A stretch of DNA of 64,000 nucleotides, taken from the NCBI RefSeq assembly GCF_016859125.1, contig NZ_CP069338.1, positions 6,263,501 through 6,327,500 on the forward strand, in the 5' to 3' direction. This document shows, piece by piece, positions 11,279 to 51,726 of the stretch. Position numbers and translations under genes: made by a program. Under the pieces are notes generated by a model that saw only the letters and a program-made list of their open reading frames with translations, ran no database searches and was not told where the DNA came from. Origin of the DNA: Archangium violaceum (lineage in GTDB: Bacteria; Myxococcota; Myxococcia; Myxococcales; Myxococcaceae). The number at the start of each line of letters is the position of its first letter. The first letter of the stretch is position 1.

Positions 11279-14200
11279 ATGTCTTTTACCCATCTCCACC
11301 TGCACTCCCTGTACTCGCTCCTCGACGGCGCGATCCGGATGAAGGACCTCATCAAGACGGTGAAGGAGAAGGGGATGACGAGCGTGGCCGTGACCGATCA
11401 CGGCAACATGTTCGCCACCATCGACTTCTACAAGAAGGCCAAGGACGCGGGCATCAAGCCGATCATCGGCATGGAGACCTACGTCGCCGGTCCCAAGGGC
11501 CGCAAGGATCGCACCGAGAAGGTGGGCCACCACCTCATCCTGCTGGCCAAGAACAAGGAGGGGTACGACAACCTCAAGTACCTCTCGTCCATGGCCTACC
11601 GTGAGGGCTTCTACTACCACCCGCGCATCGACAAGGAGCTCCTGAAGGACCACAGCAAGGGGCTCTTCGCGCTCACCGCCTGCCTGGGTGGCGAGGTGAC
11701 GGGCGCGGCCTTCCGCGGGGACATGGACCACGCCCGCAAGGCGGCGCTCGAGTACAAGAACATCTTCGAGCCCGAGCACTTCTTCCTCGAGGTGCAGTCC
11801 AACGGGATGCCCGAGCAGGAGAAGGCCAACGAGAACCTCAAGCAGCTCAGCCGGGACCTGGCCATCCCGCTGTGCGCCACCGCGGACGCGCACTACATCA
11901 AGCGCGAGGACGCGCGCGCCCACGAGCTCCTCATGTGCATCGCCAGCGGCAAGACGCTCGCCGACGGCAAGCGCATGAAGCACTCCACGGACAAGCTCTA
12001 CGTCACCAGTCCCCAGGAGATGCTGGAGTACTTCAAGGACACGCCCGAGGCCGTCCACAACACCCAGCGCATCGTCGAGCAGATCAACCTGGAGCTGAAG
12101 CTGGGCAAGCCCATGCTGCCCACCTTCCAGGTGCCCGACAGCCACACGCCGGACAGCTTCATGGCGGAGCTGGCGCGCAAGAACCTGGAGGAGCGCTTCA
12201 AGGAGATCGACCTGGCGCGCTTCCGCGCCGGCCAGCCGCCCGTGGACCGCGAGCCCTACAAGGCCCGTCTGGAGCTGGAGATCGGCGTCATCCAGAAGAT
12301 GGGGTTCAGCGGCTACTTCCTCATCGTCCAGGACTTCATCAACTGGGCCAAGCAGAACGGGATTCCGGTGGGACCGGGCCGTGGCTCGGGCGCCGGTTCG
12401 CTCGTGGCCTACTGCCTGCGCATCACCGACCTGGATCCGCTCCCGTACAACCTCCTCTTCGAGCGCTTCCTCAACCCCGAGCGCGTGTCGATGCCCGACT
12501 TCGACGTCGACTTCTGCCAGGACCGGCGCGACGAGGTCATCAAGTACGTGGGCCGCAAGTACGGGGAGAACAACGTCGGGCAGATCATCACCTTCGGCTC
12601 GCTCAAGGCCAAGAGCGTGCTGCGCGACGTGTGCCGCGTCTTCGCGCTGCCCTTCAGTGAGGGGGACCGCATCGCCAAGCTGGTGCCCGAGGTGCTCGGC
12701 ATCACGCTCAAGGACGCCATCGAGCAGGAGCCGCGCCTCAAGGAGATGATGGAGAAGCCCACCGCCATCGGGCAGGTGGAGGGCAAGGACGTCACCACCA
12801 AGGACGTGCTGGAGATCGCGCTCGCGCTGGAGGGCCTGCACCGCCAGCCCGGCATGCACGCGGCCGGCGTCGTCATCGCCGACAAGCCGCTGTGGGAGTT
12901 CGTGCCCACCTACCAGCCTCCGGGCCAGGACACCCTCATCACCCAGTTCGCCAAGGACGAGGTGGAGGCGGCGGGCCTGGTGAAGTTCGACTTCCTCGGC
13001 CTCAAGACGCTCACCGTCATCCAGAACGCGCTCAACCTCATCAACCGCAACCCACCGGACGGCAAGCCCATCCAGCGCGAGGACATCCCGCTGGATGACC
13101 CGGAGGTGTGGAAGCTGATGGCGGACGGCGACACCGCCGGCGTCTTCCAGATGGAGTCCAGCGGCTTCACCGAAATGGTGATGAAGCTCAAGCCGTCCTG
13201 CTTCGAAGACGTCATCGCCGCCGGCGCGCTCTACCGCCCGGGTCCGCTCGACTCGGGCATGGTGGACGTCTTCATCAACCGCAAGCACGGCCGCGAGCCG
13301 GTGGTGTACCCGCACCCCCTGCTGGAGCCCGTCCTCAAGGACACCTACGGCGTCATCGTCTACCAGGAACAGGTGATGCAGATCTCCCAGGTGCTGGGAG
13401 GCTACACCCTGGGCCGCGCGGACCTGCTGCGCCGCGCCATGGGCAAGAAGAAGGCCGAGGTCATGCAGGCCGAGCGGGCCGGCTTCCTCGAGGGGTGCAA
13501 GAACAACAACGTCGACCTGAAGGTGGCCGGCGAGATCTTCGACCTCATGGAGAAGTTCGCCGAGTACGGCTTCAACAAGAGCCACTCGGCGGCCTACGGC
13601 CTCGTCACGCTCCACACGGCCTGGCTCAAGGCGCACTACCGCGTGGAGTTCATGGCGGCCCTTCTCACGAGCGAGAAGGAAAACACCGACAAGGTGGTGC
13701 TGCACATCGGCGAGGCCCGGCAGTCGGGCGTGCAGGTGCTGCCGCCGGACGTGAACCAGTCGGACATGGCCTTCGGCGCGGTGGAGGGGAAGATCCGCTT
13801 CGGCCTGGGCGCCATCAAGGGCGTGGGCGAGGGGGCCATCGAGGCCATCGTCGAGGCGCGCAAGGAGGGCCCCTTCAAGAGCCTGTTCGACTTCTGCGAG
13901 CGCGTGGACTCGCGGAAGGTGAACCGCAAGGTGTTGGAGCAATTGGTGAAGGCGGGCGCCTTCGACTTCGAGAATCGCCCGCGGCGGCAGCTCTTCGAGA
14001 GCATCGAGCGCGCGATGAGCCGCGGCTCCAGCAGCCAGAAGGACAAGGCCGCGGGGCAGAGTTCGCTCTTCGGGATGCTGGGCGGTGGTTCCTCGGGCGG
14101 CGGCGGCGGGATGAAGGACGACTACGTCCAGGTGGAGGAGTGGTCGGAGAAGGAGCGCCTGGCGCTGGAGAAGGAGGCCATCGGCTTCTACGTGTCGGGC

Positions 14201-14917: not shown

Positions 14918-15745
14918 ATGACGGCGGCATATCAGTCACTGCGCATCGAACAGGCGGACGGCATCGCCGAGGTGGTGCTCACCGGTCCCGGCAAGGGCAA
15001 CGCGCTCGGGCCGGACTTCTGGCGCGAGATGCCCGAGGCGCTCCGGAAGCTCGACGCGGATGACTCGGTGCGCGTCGTCCTCCTGCGCGGCGACGGCTCC
15101 CACTTCACCTACGGCCTCGACTTGATGGCCATGATGGAGACGCTCGGGCCGCTGCTCACGGGCGAGGGCAACCTCGCGCTCGAGCGCACGAAGCTGCTCC
15201 AACTCATCGACACCATGCAGGCCTCCACCGAGGGGCTCGCCCGCTGCCGCAAGCCGGTGCTGGCGGCGGTGCACGGCTGGTGCATCGGTGGCGGTATCGA
15301 TCTCATCGCCGCGTGCGACTTCCGCTACTGCTCGCGCGAGGCGAAGTTCTCCCTGCGCGAGGTACGCGTGGGCATCACCGCGGACCTCGGCGCGCTGCAG
15401 CGGCTGCCGCGCATCATCGGCGAGGGGCACACGCGCGAGCTCGCCTATACCGGTGGCGACATCGACGCGGACCGCGCCCTCCAGATGGGACTGGTGAACC
15501 AGGTCTTCGCCACCCCCGAGGAGTTGCTGGCCGCGGCGCGCGCCACCGCACGGAAGATCGCCGACAACCCTCCGCTCGTGGTGCAGGGGGCCAAGCAGGT
15601 AATGGAGTATTGCGCGGACAAGTCCGTGGCGGACGGCCTGCGCTACGTGGCGGTGTGGAACTCCGCCTTCCTTCAGTCACATGACCTCGCCGAGGCCTTC
15701 GCGGCATACGCCGAGCGGCGGCCTCCGCGCTTCCAGGGGAGATGA
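14918..15745 (+). CDS. Delta3,5-delta2,4-dienoyl-CoA isomerase (crotonase family)
   Basis: A 275-residue crotonase-fold enzyme. The oxyanion-hole loop is [16 protein letters not shown]. The following segment ([22 protein letters not shown]) carries the acidic residues used by ECH1-type dienoyl-CoA isomerases (Glu of REVRVG and Asp of TADLG), together with the Asp of GGGIDL. That pattern separates it from ordinary enoyl-CoA hydratases. It would move double bonds during beta-oxidation of unsaturated acyl-CoAs. The last codons overlap the start of the dienoyl-CoA reductase gene (ATGA), which independently supports this assignment. Expression may be affected by the hairpin covering its ribosome site. 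Confidence 0.85.
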
Positions 15746-16554
15746 GTCACATGGCACAGGGTGTATTTCGAGATGATCTGCTGGCGGGCAAGGTGGCCTT
15801 CATCACCGGCGGCAGCAGTGGCATCAACCTCGGTATCGCCGAGGCCTTCGTGAAGGCGGGCGCCAAGGTCGTCATCAACGGCCGCAACGTGGAGAAGCTG
15901 GAGGCGGCCGTGAAGGGCCTCCAGGCGCATGGCACCGCCATGGGCGTGCCCGCGGACGTGCGCAACTACGAGTCCGTGGAGAAGGCCATCCAATCGGCGC
16001 GTGATGCCTATGGGGAGCTCGACATCCTCGTGTGCGGCGCGGCGGGCAACTTCCCCGCTCCCGCCCTGGGCATGTCCTCCAATGGATTCAAGTCCGTGCT
16101 GGAGATCGACGTGCTCGGCACCTTCAACGCCTGCCGCGCCGCCTTCGAGCACCTGCGCAAGCCGGGCGCCAGCGTGCTCAACATCTCCGCGCCCCAGGCC
16201 TACCTGCCCATGGCCATGCAGGCCCACGTCTGCGCCGCCAAGGCTGGTGTGGACATGATTACCCGCACCCTCGCCATCGAGTGGGGTGGGGTGGGCGTGC
16301 GCGTCAACTCCATCACCCCCGGCCCCATCGACGACACCGAGGGCATGCGCCGGCTCGCCCCGGGCGACGACACCCGCCAGAAGCTCACCCGGGCCCTGCC
16401 CCTGCAACGCTTCGGTACGAAGCAGGACATCTCGCAACTCGCGCTTTTCCTGGCGTCGGATGCGGCCTCATACATCACCGGCTCCATCATGGTGTGTGAC
16501 GGTGGCCAGTCGCTGCTCGGCTCCGGCCTGATGCTCCAGGCCATGGGCATGTGA
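15742..16554 (+). CDS. 2,4-dienoyl-CoA reductase (SDR family, DECR2-like)
   Basis: A 270-residue short-chain dehydrogenase/reductase that would reduce 2,4-dienoyl-CoA with NADPH. The nucleotide motif is [12 protein letters not shown], followed by [15 protein letters not shown] and [14 protein letters not shown]. The active-site region [17 protein letters not shown] keeps the catalytic lysine but has no tyrosine four residues before it, exactly as in peroxisomal 2,4-dienoyl-CoA reductases. The C-terminal [19 protein letters not shown] and [18 protein letters not shown] also fit that subgroup. The ATG at 15742 overlaps the isomerase TGA. Together the pair handles polyunsaturated or odd-positioned double bonds in fatty-acid degradation. 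Confidence 0.88.
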
Positions 16555-45828: not shown

Positions 45829-46899
45829 CTAGTTCGCGCCGCCTGCCCGCTGCCGACGTTTGGCGCGGAAGAACTCCACCTGCCACTTCTGCACGGCCGC
45901 GTTGTGGCACTCCAGGGTGGGGCAGAAGATGTGGGTGCCGTCGTTGCGCGACACGAAGAAGAGATCCTCGCAGTCGAGCGGATGAAGGGCCGCCTGGATG
46001 GCCGCTGCACCCGGGTTGGCGATGGGCCCCGGCGGCAACCCGGCCGTGGTGTACGTGTTGTACGGGTGCGGCGTCTCCAGGTCCCTCTTGGTGATGTTCT
46101 TCGAGTACACCCCGCGCAGCAGCTTCATGGCGTAGATGACCGTGGGGTCCGTCTGCAGCTTGATGCCCTGGCGCAGCCGGTTGTGGAAGACACACGCGAT
46201 GCGGGGCCGCTCCTGGGGCTGGCCCGTCTCCTTCTCCACGATGGAGGCCAGGGTGAACGTCTCCAGCAGCGAGAGCTTCACCCCGGCCTTCCTCTTCGCG
46301 TCCGCCTTCCGGTACTCCTCGAGCGAGCGTTCCACCATGCGGGCGAGCACCCGCTCCTCGGTGGCGTTGCGGGTGAAGGTGTACGTGTCCGGGTAGAGGA
46401 AGCCCTCGATGGAGGAAGCGGGCACGCCGGCCTCGCGCAGGAAGCGCGGATCCGCGACGAGCCGCTCCAGCTTCCTCGGGTCCAGCTTCAGCTCCGAGTT
46501 GGCGAGGATGGGGAGGATCTCCTCCACGCGCAGACCCTCGGGGACGGTGAAGCGGTAGACCTTCACCTTGCCCGAGGCGAGCAGCTCCACCACCTGGGCG
46601 GGGGTGAGGGTGCCCTCGAAGAGGTACTCACCGGCCTTGAGTCTGGGGCCCGCCTGCTCGCGGCGGATGAAGAGGTAGAGGAGCTCCGGATCCGTGACGA
46701 CCCCCGCGTCCGCCAGCATCAGGGCGAGCGTCCTCGGGCCGGTGCCATTGGGCACGCTGACGGTGATGCCTTCCTGGGGCAGGGTGACGGGGGTGGCGGC
46801 GAACTCGGTGATCCGCCGCTCGCGGCGCAGGTACCAGCCGCCCGCGGCGGCGGCCGCGAGCACCCCGAGGACGAGCAGGGCGAGGAGGACTTTCTTCAC
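45829..46899 (-). CDS. mltG: Endolytic murein transglycosylase MltG
   Basis: A 356-residue inner-membrane enzyme that cuts nascent peptidoglycan glycan strands and helps end their synthesis. It has one N-terminal membrane helix (VLLALLVLGVLAAAAAGG), a LysM-like region (about 45-110; VSVPNGTGPRTLALML), and the YceG/MltG catalytic domain, with the active-site glutamate in TLASIVEKETG and conserved FHNRLRQGIKLQTDPTVIY, NTYTTAGLPPGPIANPG. It starts with GTG directly after the ruvX stop codon (TAAGTG), so the two are co-translated. Gene pairing of ruvX and mltG is common in bacteria. Confidence 0.96.
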   Translation of the reverse strand: MKKVLLALLVLGVLAAAAAGGWYLRRERRITEFAATPVTLPQEGITVSVPNGTGPRTLALMLADAGVVTDPELLYLFIRREQAGPRLKAGEYLFEGTLTPAQVVELLASGKVKVYRFTVPEGLRVEEILPILANSELKLDPRKLERLVADPRFLREAGVPASSIEGFLYPDTYTFTRNATEERVLARMVERSLEEYRKADAKRKAGVKLSLLETFTLASIVEKETGQPQERPRIACVFHNRLRQGIKLQTDPTVIYAMKLLRGVYSKNITKRDLETPHPYNTYTTAGLPPGPIANPGAAAIQAALHPLDCEDLFFVSRNDGTHIFCPTLECHNAAVQKWQVEFFRAKRRQRAGGAN

Positions 46900-47355
46900 T
46901 TACATCTCCGGGTCGTAATCGTCGTCATCGAACGCCTCCGAGGGCGGGCGCCGGGCGTCGAGCCACCCCTGGAGGATGAACTGGGCGGCCATCTGGTCGA
47001 TGACCTCGCGGCGCTTGGCGCGCGACAGGTCCGCCTCGAGCAGGGTGCGCTGGGCGGCCACGGTGGACAGGCGCTCGTCCCATAGCTCCACGGGCAGGCC
47101 CGTGGCCTGGGTGAGCGTGTCCACGAACTTGCGGGTGGCCTCGGCGCGAGGGCCCTCGGAGCCATCCATGTTGAGCGGCAGCCCGACGACGAAGCGCTCG
47201 GCCTCGTACTCGCGCACGAGCTTCACGAGCGCGGCGAGGTCCGCCTTGAGGCTGGTCCGCCGGATGGTCGTCACGGTCTGGGCGGTGAGGCCCAGGGCGT
47301 CCGAGGCCGCGACGCCGATTGTCTTGGTACCCACGTCGAGGCCCAGGGTGCGCAT
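46900..47355 (-). CDS. ruvX: Putative Holliday junction resolvase RuvX (YqgF)
   Basis: A 151-residue RNase H-fold protein of the YqgF/RuvX family, acting in recombination and/or 16S rRNA 5' maturation. Visible landmarks: LGLDVGTKTIGVAASD at the N-terminus, FVVGLPLNMDGSEGP, LPVELWDERLSTVAAQRTL, and the late acidic helix VIDQMAAQFILQGWLD. The catalytic acidic residues are all present. The C-terminus ends in an acidic DDDDYDPEM tail. It starts at ATG 47355 and is directly followed by mltG. Confidence 0.95.
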   Translation of the reverse strand: MRTLGLDVGTKTIGVAASDALGLTAQTVTTIRRTSLKADLAALVKLVREYEAERFVVGLPLNMDGSEGPRAEATRKFVDTLTQATGLPVELWDERLSTVAAQRTLLEADLSRAKRREVIDQMAAQFILQGWLDARRPPSEAFDDDDYDPEM

Positions 47356-47527: not shown

Positions 47528-48628
47528 ATGAGTGACTTTCTGAAGGGGTTGGGCAGTGCCCTGGGGGGGGTGACGAACCTGCTGTCGGGTGGCGCGCTCA
47601 TCGACATGGCGGGCAGTGCACTGGGGCTCCCGCCGGCCATCACCAACGCCGCGAAGGTGGCGGTGGGGGCGATGACGGGCAATGTGATGCTGGCGGCCGA
47701 TGGCGCGATGGGGCTCGCGCAGGAGCTGACCCAGAATCCGCCGGCCACCACCGAGTACAGGGCGCCGAAGGACGAGCAGCGGGCCTGCGAGGGCTACGCG
47801 AAGCCGCGGCACGGCTCCTCGCCGGTGGAGACGGGCGGCTCGCGCGAGCCCTGTGGCGTCGACGGGGGCAGCCACCTGGACCCCAAGATGAACGACTACC
47901 TCCATTCGCTGCGGACGATCGAGCAGAACTTCCGCTACCTCGACGCGACGGACGGGAAGCTGGACGGGTCGCTGTCGAAGGCGGACCTGAAGCGCATCTC
48001 CGAGGACTCGCGCGTGTCGCCCGAGCTGCGCAAGGCGGCCCGCTTCCTGGTGGACAACCCGGGCTACTTCGAGCGGCTCGACACCTCGCTCGGCGGCTTC
48101 AAGGGCGGTGTCGCGGGGATTCTCCAGGACATCCGGAACGACGACCGCATCACCCAGAGCAACGTGCGGGGTGAGATCAACAAGGTGAAGGCGGACTACG
48201 CGCAGTACGGGCAGCCCGGGAGCGTGGAGTCGTCGTCGGGGTCTTCCCGCCCCGGCGGTTCCAGTGGCACGTCGTCGTCCTCGGGCGGTCAGGCCAGCTC
48301 GAGCGTCCGGGGCGTCATCAACGACCCGAGCATGAGCCTGGAGGAGAAGATCGAGGCCATCCTCATGTCGCTCACGGAGAAGCTGGACGACGAGATCCTC
48401 CAGACGATGGATGACCTGGCGGCGGCGCAGGACTCCAGGGCCGGCATCTCGAACGAGAAGGGCAACGAGAAGAAGGCCGCGGACGCGGATCGGAACATCG
48501 AGAAGATCAACCTGCGGCTTCAGAAGCTCATCGAGAAGCGCAAGAACATGTTCGAGATGATGAGCACGCTGTCCATGAAGTTCAACGAGATGGCGAAGAC
48601 GGCCCTCTCCAACATGCGGAGCGCGTAG
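47528..48628 (+). CDS. Probable type III secretion translocator-like protein (HrpF/NolX-type repeats)
   Basis: A 366-residue protein; AAGGAGAAA precedes ATG 47528. Residues about 1-75 are glycine/alanine rich and amphipathic. About residues 125-215 contain paired acidic units (YLDATDGKLDGSLSKADLK and YFERLDTSLGGFKGGVAGIL) separated by RKAARFLVDNP. This layout matches the repeats of HrpF/NolX translocon proteins and looks EF-hand-like. A Ser/Gly linker (about 230-260) leads to a long charged coiled coil (MSLEEKIEAILMSLTEKL to the end), as in translocators. There is no signal peptide, consistent with type III export. A SycD/LcrH-like chaperone gene follows 39 bp downstream. No secretion-apparatus gene is in the window. 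Confidence 0.6.
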   Translation: MSDFLKGLGSALGGVTNLLSGGALIDMAGSALGLPPAITNAAKVAVGAMTGNVMLAADGAMGLAQELTQNPPATTEYRAPKDEQRACEGYAKPRHGSSPVETGGSREPCGVDGGSHLDPKMNDYLHSLRTIEQNFRYLDATDGKLDGSLSKADLKRISEDSRVSPELRKAARFLVDNPGYFERLDTSLGGFKGGVAGILQDIRNDDRITQSNVRGEINKVKADYAQYGQPGSVESSSGSSRPGGSSGTSSSSGGQASSSVRGVINDPSMSLEEKIEAILMSLTEKLDDEILQTMDDLAAAQDSRAGISNEKGNEKKAADADRNIEKINLRLQKLIEKRKNMFEMMSTLSMKFNEMAKTALSNMRSA

Positions 48629-48667
48629 GCGGAGATGGGACGGGTCATCAAGTACGAGGGAGGAGCC

Positions 48668-49156
48668 ATGGACACGGCAACGACGGAGAAGCTGAAGGCG
48701 TTCGTGCGCGGGGAGATGACGTGGTCGGAGGTGGAGGGGATGACCTTCGAGGAGGCGAAGGCGATCGCGCAGGTGGGGTGTGACCTGGCGGCGGCGGGGC
48801 GCTACGAGGAGGCGCGCATCCTCTTCGAGGGGCTGGTGGAGGGGAACCCGAAGGACTCGGCGAGCCGGGCGGCGCTGGGCACGGTGTACCAGAAGCTGGG
48901 GCGGCTGGAGGAGGCCATCTCCGAGTACAGCGCGGCGCTGGAGCGAGACCCGAGCAACCCGGTGGCGCTGGTGAACCGCGGCGAGCTGTACCTGCGGCAG
49001 GGCAACCGGCAGGGCTTCACGGACATCGCCAACGCGTCGGAGGCGGATCCGAACGGGGAGACGTCGGCGGGCCGGAGGGCGAAGGCGCTGGTGAAGGCGA
49101 TCGCGCTGGCGGCCGCGGAGAAGATGAAGGCGGATCAGGCCCAGGCGCGGGCGTAG
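48668..49156 (+). CDS. SycD/LcrH-like TPR chaperone
   Basis: A 162-residue TPR protein with GAGGAGCC before ATG 48668. The N-terminal segment MTWSEVEGMTFEEAKAIAQ resembles the opening helix of class II type III secretion chaperones. Three TPR units follow (GRYEEARILFEGLVEGNPKD, GRLEEAISEYSAALERDPSN, ALVNRGELYLRQGNRQGF). The length is the usual one for SycD/LcrH/IpgC proteins, which hold translocators before export. Its position just after the translocator-like gene supports this reading. A generic TPR protein is the alternative. Confidence 0.65.
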   Translation: MDTATTEKLKAFVRGEMTWSEVEGMTFEEAKAIAQVGCDLAAAGRYEEARILFEGLVEGNPKDSASRAALGTVYQKLGRLEEAISEYSAALERDPSNPVALVNRGELYLRQGNRQGFTDIANASEADPNGETSAGRRAKALVKAIALAAAEKMKADQAQARA

Positions 49157-49228: not shown

Positions 49229-50476
49229 TCAGTGGGAGGGCTCCGTGACGAACGGAGTTCCGCCCGCTGGCGCTCTTTTTCGTGGGGAGGGGGGAACGGC
49301 GGCCAGACGCTCGGAGATGGGCGGGTGGCTGTGGCCCTTGAGGACGACCCAGCGAGGCGGGTCCGGGTCCATCTTGTTCACCCGGGCGGCCTTCACCAGC
49401 ATGCGGCGGAAGGCGTCGGAGTCCTGGGTGAGTTGGAGGGCGTAGCGGTCGGCCTCGCGCTCGCGCTCACGGGAGAAGGCGGCGGAGAGGGGGTTGCTCA
49501 GGAAGAAGATGAAGAAGGAGAGCAACCACAGCAGGGGGAGGGTGCGGATGTCGGCGAAGTGCGTGGTGCCGAACCACCCTCGTGAGGCGGACAGCCTCAG
49601 CAGCCGGTCGATGACGAAGAGGAGCGCGAGCATCGCCACGGAGGAGGCGATGCGCCCCGGCCATTTCGACTCGTGGACGTGGCCCGCCTCGTGCGCGACC
49701 GCGGCGAGGATCTCCTCGGGTGCGAGCTCCTGGAGGATGACGTCGTTGAGCACGATGGTGCGCGTGGGGCCCTGGCCCGCGAAGTAGGCCTGGAGGCGCT
49801 TGCTGGCCACGGAGGTCTTCTCCACCCGCACGTCCTGGAAGGGGATGTTCGCCTGGGCCATCAACGCGGTGATGCGCTCGCGCACGGGCCCCTGCTCGAG
49901 GGGGGTCTGCTCGAAGTAGACCTGGTTGCGGTACGGGTCGAGGGCCGAGGACACCAGCAGCAGCAGCGCCGAGGGGATGCCCAGCACCAGCCACCAGCGC
50001 TTCACCCGGCGGGCCAGCCCATACAGCCCCAGGACCAGCGCGAGGGTGGCGAACCCCTGCAGGGTGACACCCTTGAGCTCGTCCAACGCGAACCGCAGGG
50101 GCGTATAGGCGGACATGCCGTAGCGGTGCTCCAGCACGTAGTCGAAGTAGATGGTCGCCGGGACGTGGACGAGCTCGATGAAGAGGTTCACGAGCAGCGC
50201 GAAGAAGATCGCCGCGCCCCATCCCGGCTCACCCCAGAGCCGGTCCATGGCCTTGACGAAGGCCCGGCTGACGGGCGCCGTGCGAAGGAACGCGAGCCGC
50301 TGGGACAGCCAGGCCGCACAGGACTCGGACCACCGGTAGAAGGGCCGCACGAGCACGCCCAGGATGAGGGCCAGCACGCCCAGGTAGATGAAGGGGCTCA
50401 CCGCGCTGCGGATGTAGAGCGGCAGGTGGTAGGCCTTGATCTCGGCCAGCTGCTCGGGCGTGAAGATGGGCTCCAT
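49229..50476 (-). CDS. M48-family membrane metalloprotease (Ste24-like)
   Basis: A 415-residue integral membrane protease. About six hydrophobic segments surround the zinc motif HEAGH (in AAVAHEAGHVHESKW), and the third-ligand region EREREADRYALQLT follows. The length and topology fit CAAX prenyl protease 1/Ste24-like enzymes, which in bacteria clear misfolded membrane proteins. It starts at ATG 50476. The left end of an IS3-family element lies only 19 bp upstream of that ATG, so the native promoter has probably been separated from the gene. It is convergent with the chaperone gene. Confidence 0.92.
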   Translation of the reverse strand: MEPIFTPEQLAEIKAYHLPLYIRSAVSPFIYLGVLALILGVLVRPFYRWSESCAAWLSQRLAFLRTAPVSRAFVKAMDRLWGEPGWGAAIFFALLVNLFIELVHVPATIYFDYVLEHRYGMSAYTPLRFALDELKGVTLQGFATLALVLGLYGLARRVKRWWLVLGIPSALLLLVSSALDPYRNQVYFEQTPLEQGPVRERITALMAQANIPFQDVRVEKTSVASKRLQAYFAGQGPTRTIVLNDVILQELAPEEILAAVAHEAGHVHESKWPGRIASSVAMLALLFVIDRLLRLSASRGWFGTTHFADIRTLPLLWLLSFFIFFLSNPLSAAFSREREREADRYALQLTQDSDAFRRMLVKAARVNKMDPDPPRWVVLKGHSHPPISERLAAVPPSPRKRAPAGGTPFVTEPSH

Positions 50477-50495
50477 GGGCCGGAGAATCGTAGAC

Positions 50496-50519
50496 TGAGC
50501 CTGCCCCGGTTTTGTGGAC
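50496..50519 (+). repeat. Left inverted repeat of IS copy 1
   Basis: Starts TGAGCCTGCCCCGGTTTTG. It pairs with the right end with four mismatches over 24 bp. Confidence 0.88.
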
Positions 50520-50555
50520 ACACCTCATAAGTCGGCTACACAGGAGGTAGTGTTC

Positions 50556-50855
50556 ATGGAGCGAAGGAAGAGGCGGAGTTTCACCCCGGAGTTCAGGGCC
50601 GAGGCGGTCCGACTGGTGCGCGAGGGCAGCAAGAGCCTGCCCCAGGTGGCCAAGGACTTGGACCTGACCGAGTCAGCCCTGCGCAACTGGGTGCGCGAGG
50701 CCGACGGAGGCGATGGCAAGGAGTCGGCAGGTGCACTCTCCACGGCCGAGCGGGAGGAGTTGGTGCGGCTGAGCAAGGAGGTGCGTCATCTGGAGATGGA
50801 GCGCGACTTCCTAAAAAAAGCGGCGGCCTTCTTCGCGAAGGAGACCTCGAGGTGA
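50556..50855 (+). CDS. IS3-family OrfA (HTH protein), copy 1
   Basis: A 99-residue transposase subunit with an N-terminal helix-turn-helix (RRSFTPEFRAEAVRLVREG, then LTESALRNWVREAD) and a leucine-rich C-terminus. AGGAGG lies upstream of ATG 50556. A run of seven A at 50813-50819 allows a -1 shift into the orfB frame, which would give the OrfAB transposase typical of this family. Its TGA overlaps the orfB GTG. It is identical to copy 2. Confidence 0.93.
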   Translation: MERRKRRSFTPEFRAEAVRLVREGSKSLPQVAKDLDLTESALRNWVREADGGDGKESAGALSTAEREELVRLSKEVRHLEMERDFLKKAAAFFAKETSR

Positions 50856-51726
50856 AGTTCGAGCTCATCGACGCGGAGAAGGCCCACTTCCCTGTGGACT
50901 TCATGTGCGAGCAGCTGGGTGTGTCGCGCTCGGGCTACTACGCCTGGAAGGAGCGCCCGGAGTCCGCGCGGGACAAGGCGGACCGGGCCCTGGCCGAGGA
51001 GGTGACGCGGATACATCGCGACAGCCGCGGCACGTACGGCAGTCCTCGCGTCCACGCGGAGCTGCGTGCCCGGGGGCAGCGCGTGAGTCGAAAGCGTGTG
51101 GCCCGGCTCATGAACGAGCACGACATCGCTGCTCGCAAGAGACGGCGCTTCGTGCGCACGACGGACTCCCGCCACAACCAGCCCGTTGCCCCCAACATCC
51201 TCGAGCGCAACTTCTCCCCGGCCAGCCCAATAGCACCTGGGCCACGGACATTACCTACGTGGGGACGGGGCAGGGCTGGCTCTACCTGGCCGTCGTCATG
51301 GACCTCTTCTCTCGCAAGGTGGTGGGCTGGTCCATGAGCGAGAACATCGACCGGCACCTGGTGCTCAACGCCCTGGACATGGCCCTCGAGGGACGCCAGC
51401 CACCGCAGGGGTTGTTGCACCACTCGGACCGGGGCAGCCAGTACGCCAGCACCGACTACCAGCAGGCACTGGCTGCTCGGGGCATCCAATGCAGCATGTC
51501 GCGCAAGGGCAACTGCTGGGACAACGCCGTGGTGGAGAGCTTCTTCAGCAGCTTGAAGCAGGAGCTCGTCTACACCACCGCCTTCGCCACGCACGAGCAG
51601 GCCCGGCTGGCCCTCTTCGAATACATCGAGGTCTTCTACAACCGCCAGCGGCGGCACTCCTCGCTGGGCTACGTCAGTCCAGTGGATTTTGAGCTTGCGC
51701 CCTTACCGCAGAAGTTGGCATCTTAA
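50852..51726 (+). pseudogene. IS3-family OrfB, frameshifted, copy 1
   Basis: The integrase-type subunit. Up to NILERNFSP it matches copy 2; then a run of C (51216-51219) has four bases where copy 2 has five, and the frame breaks just before the first catalytic aspartate. The rest of the DDE domain (TWATDITYVG, HHSDRGSQYAS, NAVVESFFSSLKQEL) is still present in another frame up to 51726. So copy 1 cannot make a full transposase by itself. Two other substitutions (Leu/Phe near the start, Pro/Ala near the end) separate the copies. Confidence 0.93.

Follow-up and report, generated by a model that had tools for sequence, protein, structure and literature searches.

Myxobacteria carry non-flagellar type III secretion systems (NF-T3SSs), and their "long" and "short" loci have been described by Abby and Rocha in 2012 (PMC3459982; here and below, statements on published myxobacterial systems refer to the accessible parts of the papers cited). 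The Myxococcus xanthus T3SS* (MXAN_2434-2464) has been described as needle-less (PMC12075869, PMC10433427). In reviews as well as recent experimental studies, myxobacterial T3SSs are stated to be without a secretin, a needle and a translocon, and their substrates are given as unknown (PMC12075869, PMC10433427, PMC10849154, PMC3459982). Abby and Rocha noted that the tip and the translocon may have been missed through rapid evolution (PMC3459982). Among putative translocators described elsewhere, NolX carries one copy of a characteristic repeat and HrpF two to three, while PopF is an example of a translocator encoded away from its apparatus (PMC5483457). Here we describe two adjacent genes, P0001 and P0002, in a 64,000-nucleotide stretch of the Archangium violaceum chromosome (the window). 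As judged from sequence, they very probably encode a T3SS-linked substrate and its chaperone. An earlier note on this DNA had proposed an orphan translocator-like protein with its chaperone. The features of the pair, in window coordinates, are as follows.

47528..48628, plus strand: P0001, 366 aa, HrpF/NolX-like putative T3SS substrate of the tip/translocator type
47528..47737, plus strand: P0001 residues 1-70, conserved Gly/Ala-rich, mildly hydrophobic N-terminus
47876..48208, plus strand: P0001 residues 117-227, one HrpF/NolX-type unit of about 110 aa
48338..48625, plus strand: P0001 residues 271-366, conserved C-terminal helical hairpin (predicted)
48512..48619, plus strand: P0001 residues 329-364, needle-subunit-like motif LQ...MS...K.NEMAK.A..N.R, common to small proteins of both T3SS clusters
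48635..49156, plus strand: P0002, 173-aa tetratricopeptide repeat (TPR) protein, putative SycD/LcrH-type (class II) T3SS chaperone

Both reading frames proved to be real genes at these positions. P0001 has been found in 90 of the 145 genomes of the order, in one copy per genome, and P0002 lies directly downstream of it in 27 of the 29 relatives inspected; the remaining two are short loci (2.3 kb) that probably end at contig edges. Only 6 bp separate the two genes, which are both on the plus strand. P0002 could start at ATG 48635 or 48668, and the upstream start is probably the one used because it gives the N-terminus MGRVIKYEG, which almost every orthologue shares. The closest named relatives of P0001, from Archangium lansinium and A. 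violaceum, share 72–73% identity with it. An estimate of dN/dS by NG86 was discarded because of the extreme GC bias.

The genome (12.68 Mb, a single contig) contains two sctV genes, each in a T3SS cluster. The cluster at ~7.113–7.139 Mb, T3SS-A, encodes a SctF-like protein, TPR proteins, SctI, SctJ, a SctL/N/O/P/Q region, SctR/S/T/U and SctV, with a downstream FHA protein matching the cytoplasmic domain of SctD; names beyond those tested with Pfam have been read from the sequence. The cluster at ~6.530–6.538 Mb, T3SS-B, encodes a SctF-like and a SctI-like protein, SctJ, SctQ and SctR-V, and no LcrH-type chaperone gene has been seen in it. A tree of 27 SctV proteins, two of them fragments and with long-branch joins flagged, resolves a flagellar, an A and a B clade. 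By gene content and distribution, T3SS-A fits the "long" and T3SS-B the "short" locus of Abby and Rocha, and T3SS-A would correspond to T3SS* of Myxococcus. The systems share the lineage, the two fitting sctV clades and, in T3SS-A, the LcrH-type chaperones with the published loci, for which no needle, tip or translocon has been reported (PMC3459982, PMC12075869, PMC10433427). The pair is encoded in neither cluster (T3SS-B is 217 kb away and T3SS-A 0.8 Mb away), so the description of a remote module held. The statement that no secretion apparatus is nearby is true of the window, which has no sctV, no secretin and no LcrH-type gene besides P0002, but not of the genome.

P0002 is closest to the SycD/LcrH chaperones in both sequence and predicted fold, in agreement with the earlier assignment. 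Among the NCBIfam families, LcrH_SycD (TIGR02552) scores far above the rest, at 55.1 bits. A genome-wide search with a profile of the P0002 family ranked the four TPR genes of T3SS-A at 7.114–7.136 Mb directly behind P0002 (76, 70, 59 and 34 bits), the fourth being barely above the next TPR protein of the genome (33 bits). The predicted structure (pLDDT 83.7) matches SycD, PcrH, IpgC and AcrH with target-normalised TM-scores of about 0.70–0.80, and among natural proteins the T3SS translocator chaperones are its top fold matches (3wxx, SycD 4am9/2vgx, IpgC 3gz1, PcrH 4jl0/2xcc). The fold alone is unspecific because designed TPR proteins score similarly. P0002 thus resembles SycD, LcrH, PcrH and IpgC in size, TPR architecture, best family, fold and its place right after the presumed substrate, but unlike them it is remote from any apparatus.

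The distribution of the pair ties it to type III secretion. P0001 occurs in 90 of the 120 genomes with a sctV/flhA match and in none of the 25 without one (Fisher p=4e-13, with genomes treated as independent and without correction for kinship). Conservation of the pair in genomes that lack an apparatus, which would have spoken against the translocator proposal, was therefore not seen in the order. The pair is kept in genomes with T3SS-B only (G042, G122 and G123) and in genomes with T3SS-B and a flagellar system (G013 and G138). On the other hand, it has not been found in the genomes with T3SS-A only (G125-G127). The latter are small genomes (2.1–2.7 Mb) assigned to the same family, with a single T3SS-A-type sctV, and they show up to 11 NolX-type repeat matches in several proteins (for example L148:7649-9331). 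In G124, a P0002 relative stands beside an M48 gene with no sctV detected, in an assembly that is 87% complete and in 900 contigs.

P0001 begins with a conserved region in which G33-L-P-P, K43, G47 and T50-G-N-V are invariant, and residues 1-70 are a candidate secretion signal and chaperone-binding region. The HrpF/NolX unit has been modelled as two EF-hand-like helix-loop-helix halves, with a pLDDT of about 75–90 over most residues and a low-confidence stretch at 189-203. The loop of the first half, 139-DATDGKLDG-147, is canonical, with a clean D-x-x-D-G (D139-ATDG), and that of the second half is degenerate (around ND205D). The acidic D-x-x-D-G motif of the earlier note is therefore present as one unit with one clean and one degenerate loop, but not as several repeats; the unit is doubled in the longer relatives, as in many from Myxococcus and Corallococcus. 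A Ser/Gly/Pro-rich linker leads to the C-terminal hairpin, whose helices are predicted at residues 271-306 and 314-365; what had been called a coiled-coil end is better described as this hairpin.

Similarity to translocators, on which the HrpF/NolX reading of P0001 depended, has been found across its relatives. Pfam NolX (PF05819) matches 14 of the 17 close relatives and every one of the 11 longer ones, with 1.4e-6 as the best value; HrpK1/HrpF (PF16937) matches 5 of the 17 close and 8 of the 11 longer ones (best 4.3e-8, in the longer). On P0001 itself NolX covers only residues 146-194 (49 residues, 20.8 bits). The family shares with HrpF (Xanthomonas), PopF (Ralstonia) and NolX (rhizobia) the unit of about 110 aa in one or two copies, fast divergence and, as for PopF, the possibility of a location away from the apparatus. 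Unlike them, P0001 has its match confined to the unit, an adjacent SycD-type chaperone, a needle-like C-terminus and a predatory myxobacterial host with secretin-less T3SS loci. A tblastn search of a NolX-like relative against plasmids gave no match, hence no rhizobial NolX for direct comparison. Pfam searches recognised no catalytic domain in P0001 or its relatives. Searches of solved structures with the P0001 and C-terminal profiles returned only chance coiled-coil matches (influenza HA2 and similar), and Foldseek and VIA-align searches with the P0001 model (pLDDT 61.7) gave generic helical matches and no standout T3SS protein, a result that excludes nothing.

The C-terminus provides the second link to the apparatus. 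Both T3SS clusters encode small proteins that share one C-terminus: a longer SctF-like type upstream of the SctI-like gene (L067:13451-13990 in T3SS-A, L005:9658-10113 in T3SS-B) and, in T3SS-A, a needle-subunit-like type of about 76 aa in five near-identical copies within about 5 kb:

L003:10572-10838, 11680-11910, 12812-13042, 15094-15324 and 15589-15819, all minus strand: five ~76-aa copies, T3SS-A cluster

The 76-aa frame also occurs in multiple copies in L072, L076 and L080. In hhalign, the C-terminus of the close P0001 family aligns end to end with the small proteins (E=8e-6 and 7e-4). In neither case did any of 100 column permutations score as high as the real alignment, and a TPR control was negative. 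For the broader family the values are E=1e-11 against the 76-aa proteins and E=1.4e-8 against the 151-aa type. Also, when the 76-aa profile was run against 2210 reading frames in P0001 neighbourhoods, all 20 matches (E up to 0.1) were P0001 homologues. HMMER searches with the 76-aa and SctF-like profiles gave no match to P0001 itself in the window, and it is through its relatives and through profile-profile comparison that P0001 is linked to these proteins. What appears to be new here, on the sequence evidence, is that P0001 relatives have a C-terminus in common with needle-subunit-like proteins of both T3SS clusters. Four tandem proteins of 197–264 aa in the T3SS-A cluster of genome G047 (L074:14819-17808) end in a needle-like C-terminus, and their N-terminus, with "LGLPAP", is reminiscent of P0001.

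The small proteins themselves appear to resemble T3SS needles. The 76-aa profile matches 7y6c_F, a chain of a T3SS needle-protein chaperone complex, at E=2.2e-4, the next match being at 0.095. The chain is labelled as a needle-protein co-chaperone, but its 43-residue sequence would be that of the needle subunit bound to its chaperones. PF09392 and PF06266 align sub-threshold to the same C-termini. When the C-termini of P0001 and its relatives were searched directly against solved needle structures, the result was negative, and no match to PF09392 exceeded the Pfam cut-off (at best 14.5 bits, in the first, divergent, member listed). The last ~36 residues of the P0001 family are like small proteins that appear SctF-like (YscF/MxiH/PrgI, PF09392); unlike SctF, a helical hairpin of ~80 aa, P0001 is far longer. 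The longer SctF-like proteins of both clusters, as read from sequence, appear to run contrary to the "needle-less" description. Neither the pair nor these small proteins are described in PMC3459982, PMC12075869 or PMC10433427, and a literature search combining NolX with myxobacteria gave no paper.

The pair occupies a conserved slot, the flanks of which are outside the system proper.

45829..46899, minus strand: mltG (YceG)
46900..47355, minus strand: ruvX
49229..50521, minus strand: M48 peptidase gene

This arrangement is syntenic across the Myxococcia. Named genomes of Archangium, Hyalangium, Citreicoccus, Corallococcus and Myxococcus have the pair beside ruvX, mltG or the M48 gene, and the position is also kept in the inspected genomes of other families of the order. 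A divergent pair occupies the slot in genera missed by the first search, where P0001 is barely recognisable. An IS3-type transposase pair (HTH_Tnp_1 and rve; window 50514-51726, plus strand) directly adjoins the M48 gene.

The T3SS-A cluster also encodes a DUF1521 (NopE-type) protein with the motif GDPHVEESDG (L003:13791-14843, minus strand; also L068:14740-15912, plus strand), with its own SycD-type TPR gene beside it (L003:13236-13742, minus strand). Proteins of the NopE type are secreted by T3SSs and undergo metal-induced self-cleavage, making the DUF1521 protein a candidate substrate of T3SS*.

Several observations weigh against reading the pair as a T3SS tip or translocator with its chaperone. 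P0001 has no predicted membrane segment (best 19-residue Kyte-Doolittle mean 1.2), whereas the HrpF/NolX/PopF translocators have hydrophobic segments able to insert in membranes. It scores below the Pfam NolX gathering score of 26.1 bits, and P0002 is well under the LcrH_SycD equivalog cut-off of 104.8 bits. No type III secretin has been identified, as none of the three secretin genes of the genome lies inside either cluster. The link from the small proteins to canonical SctF consists of a single match at E=2.2e-4 together with several below threshold. Finally, the paralogy of the chaperone points to T3SS-A and the phyletic pattern to T3SS-B, and these are in conflict. We nevertheless lean, if only slightly, towards P0001 being a needle-attached tip or translocator rather than an effector or a filament. 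The needle-like C-terminus and the lack of a predicted membrane segment suggest a tip or filament attached to the needle no less than a pore.

The observations on the C-terminus would also suit a P0001 that is a structural filament subunit, either a long needle-type protein or a cap, with NolX units that decorate the filament or bind calcium. The needle-like sequence is at the very C-terminus, a position it also has in the small SctF-like proteins, and the G047 proteins combine the same type of C-terminus with a similar N-terminus. We consider such a subunit rather unlikely, given the SycD-type chaperone partner, the resemblance to HrpF/NolX and the single copy at a remote site. A role of P0001 as an effector, delivered to the inside or the surface of prey, is quite unlikely. 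Translocator-type chaperones serve some effectors too, and with the DUF1521 protein and its SycD-type gene in T3SS-A, the T3SS clusters therefore appear to have substrates. However, P0001 has no recognised catalytic domain, its conservation is highest in the N-terminus and at the needle-like end, and it is one conserved gene per genome and not part of a varied repertoire.

It is very unlikely that the pair has no relation to type III secretion, P0001 being a protein of the surface or periplasm and P0002 its generic TPR partner. The distance from both clusters, the sub-threshold family scores of both proteins and the P0002 relative of G124, fragmentary as that assembly is, would fit this, but the chaperone's paralogues in T3SS-A, the C-terminus common to small proteins of the T3SS clusters and the co-occurrence with T3SSs argue against it. 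A further, non-exclusive question within the preferred explanation is which system the pair serves. T3SS-A is favoured by the kinship of the chaperones, as the closest paralogues of P0002 are in that cluster, which has several LcrH-type chaperones. T3SS-B is the likelier partner because of the distribution: the pair is kept where T3SS-A has not been found and is not found where T3SS-A is the only system. Service to T3SS-A, by the same mechanism, is thus somewhat unlikely.

Taken as a T3SS substrate with its chaperone, the pair would be a remotely encoded, vertically inherited module, most likely of the "short" T3SS-B. By analogy with SycD and PcrH, P0002 would bind cytoplasmic P0001, with the conserved P0001 N-terminus as the probable binding site, and P0001 would then be exported through the SctRSTUV gate. 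Its C-terminal hairpin may pack onto or cap a filament of the small SctF-like proteins of the clusters, and the one or two HrpF/NolX units would extend outwards to the target envelope and serve as a tip or translocator on contact. As a tentative proposal, the myxobacterial T3SS may be neither needle-less nor translocon-less, having a divergent SctF-like filament with a remote HrpF/NolX-type cap and serving as an injection device against bacterial prey.

The pair may supply a missing part of these systems. The pair, tied to the short T3SS, and the needle-like proteins of both clusters provide concrete genes for tests in Myxococcus xanthus, and they bear on the claim that the myxobacterial systems have lost the needle. 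The question posed in the literature of how a T3SS without a secretin, needle and translocon could deliver anything would thereby become directly testable for bacterial prey.
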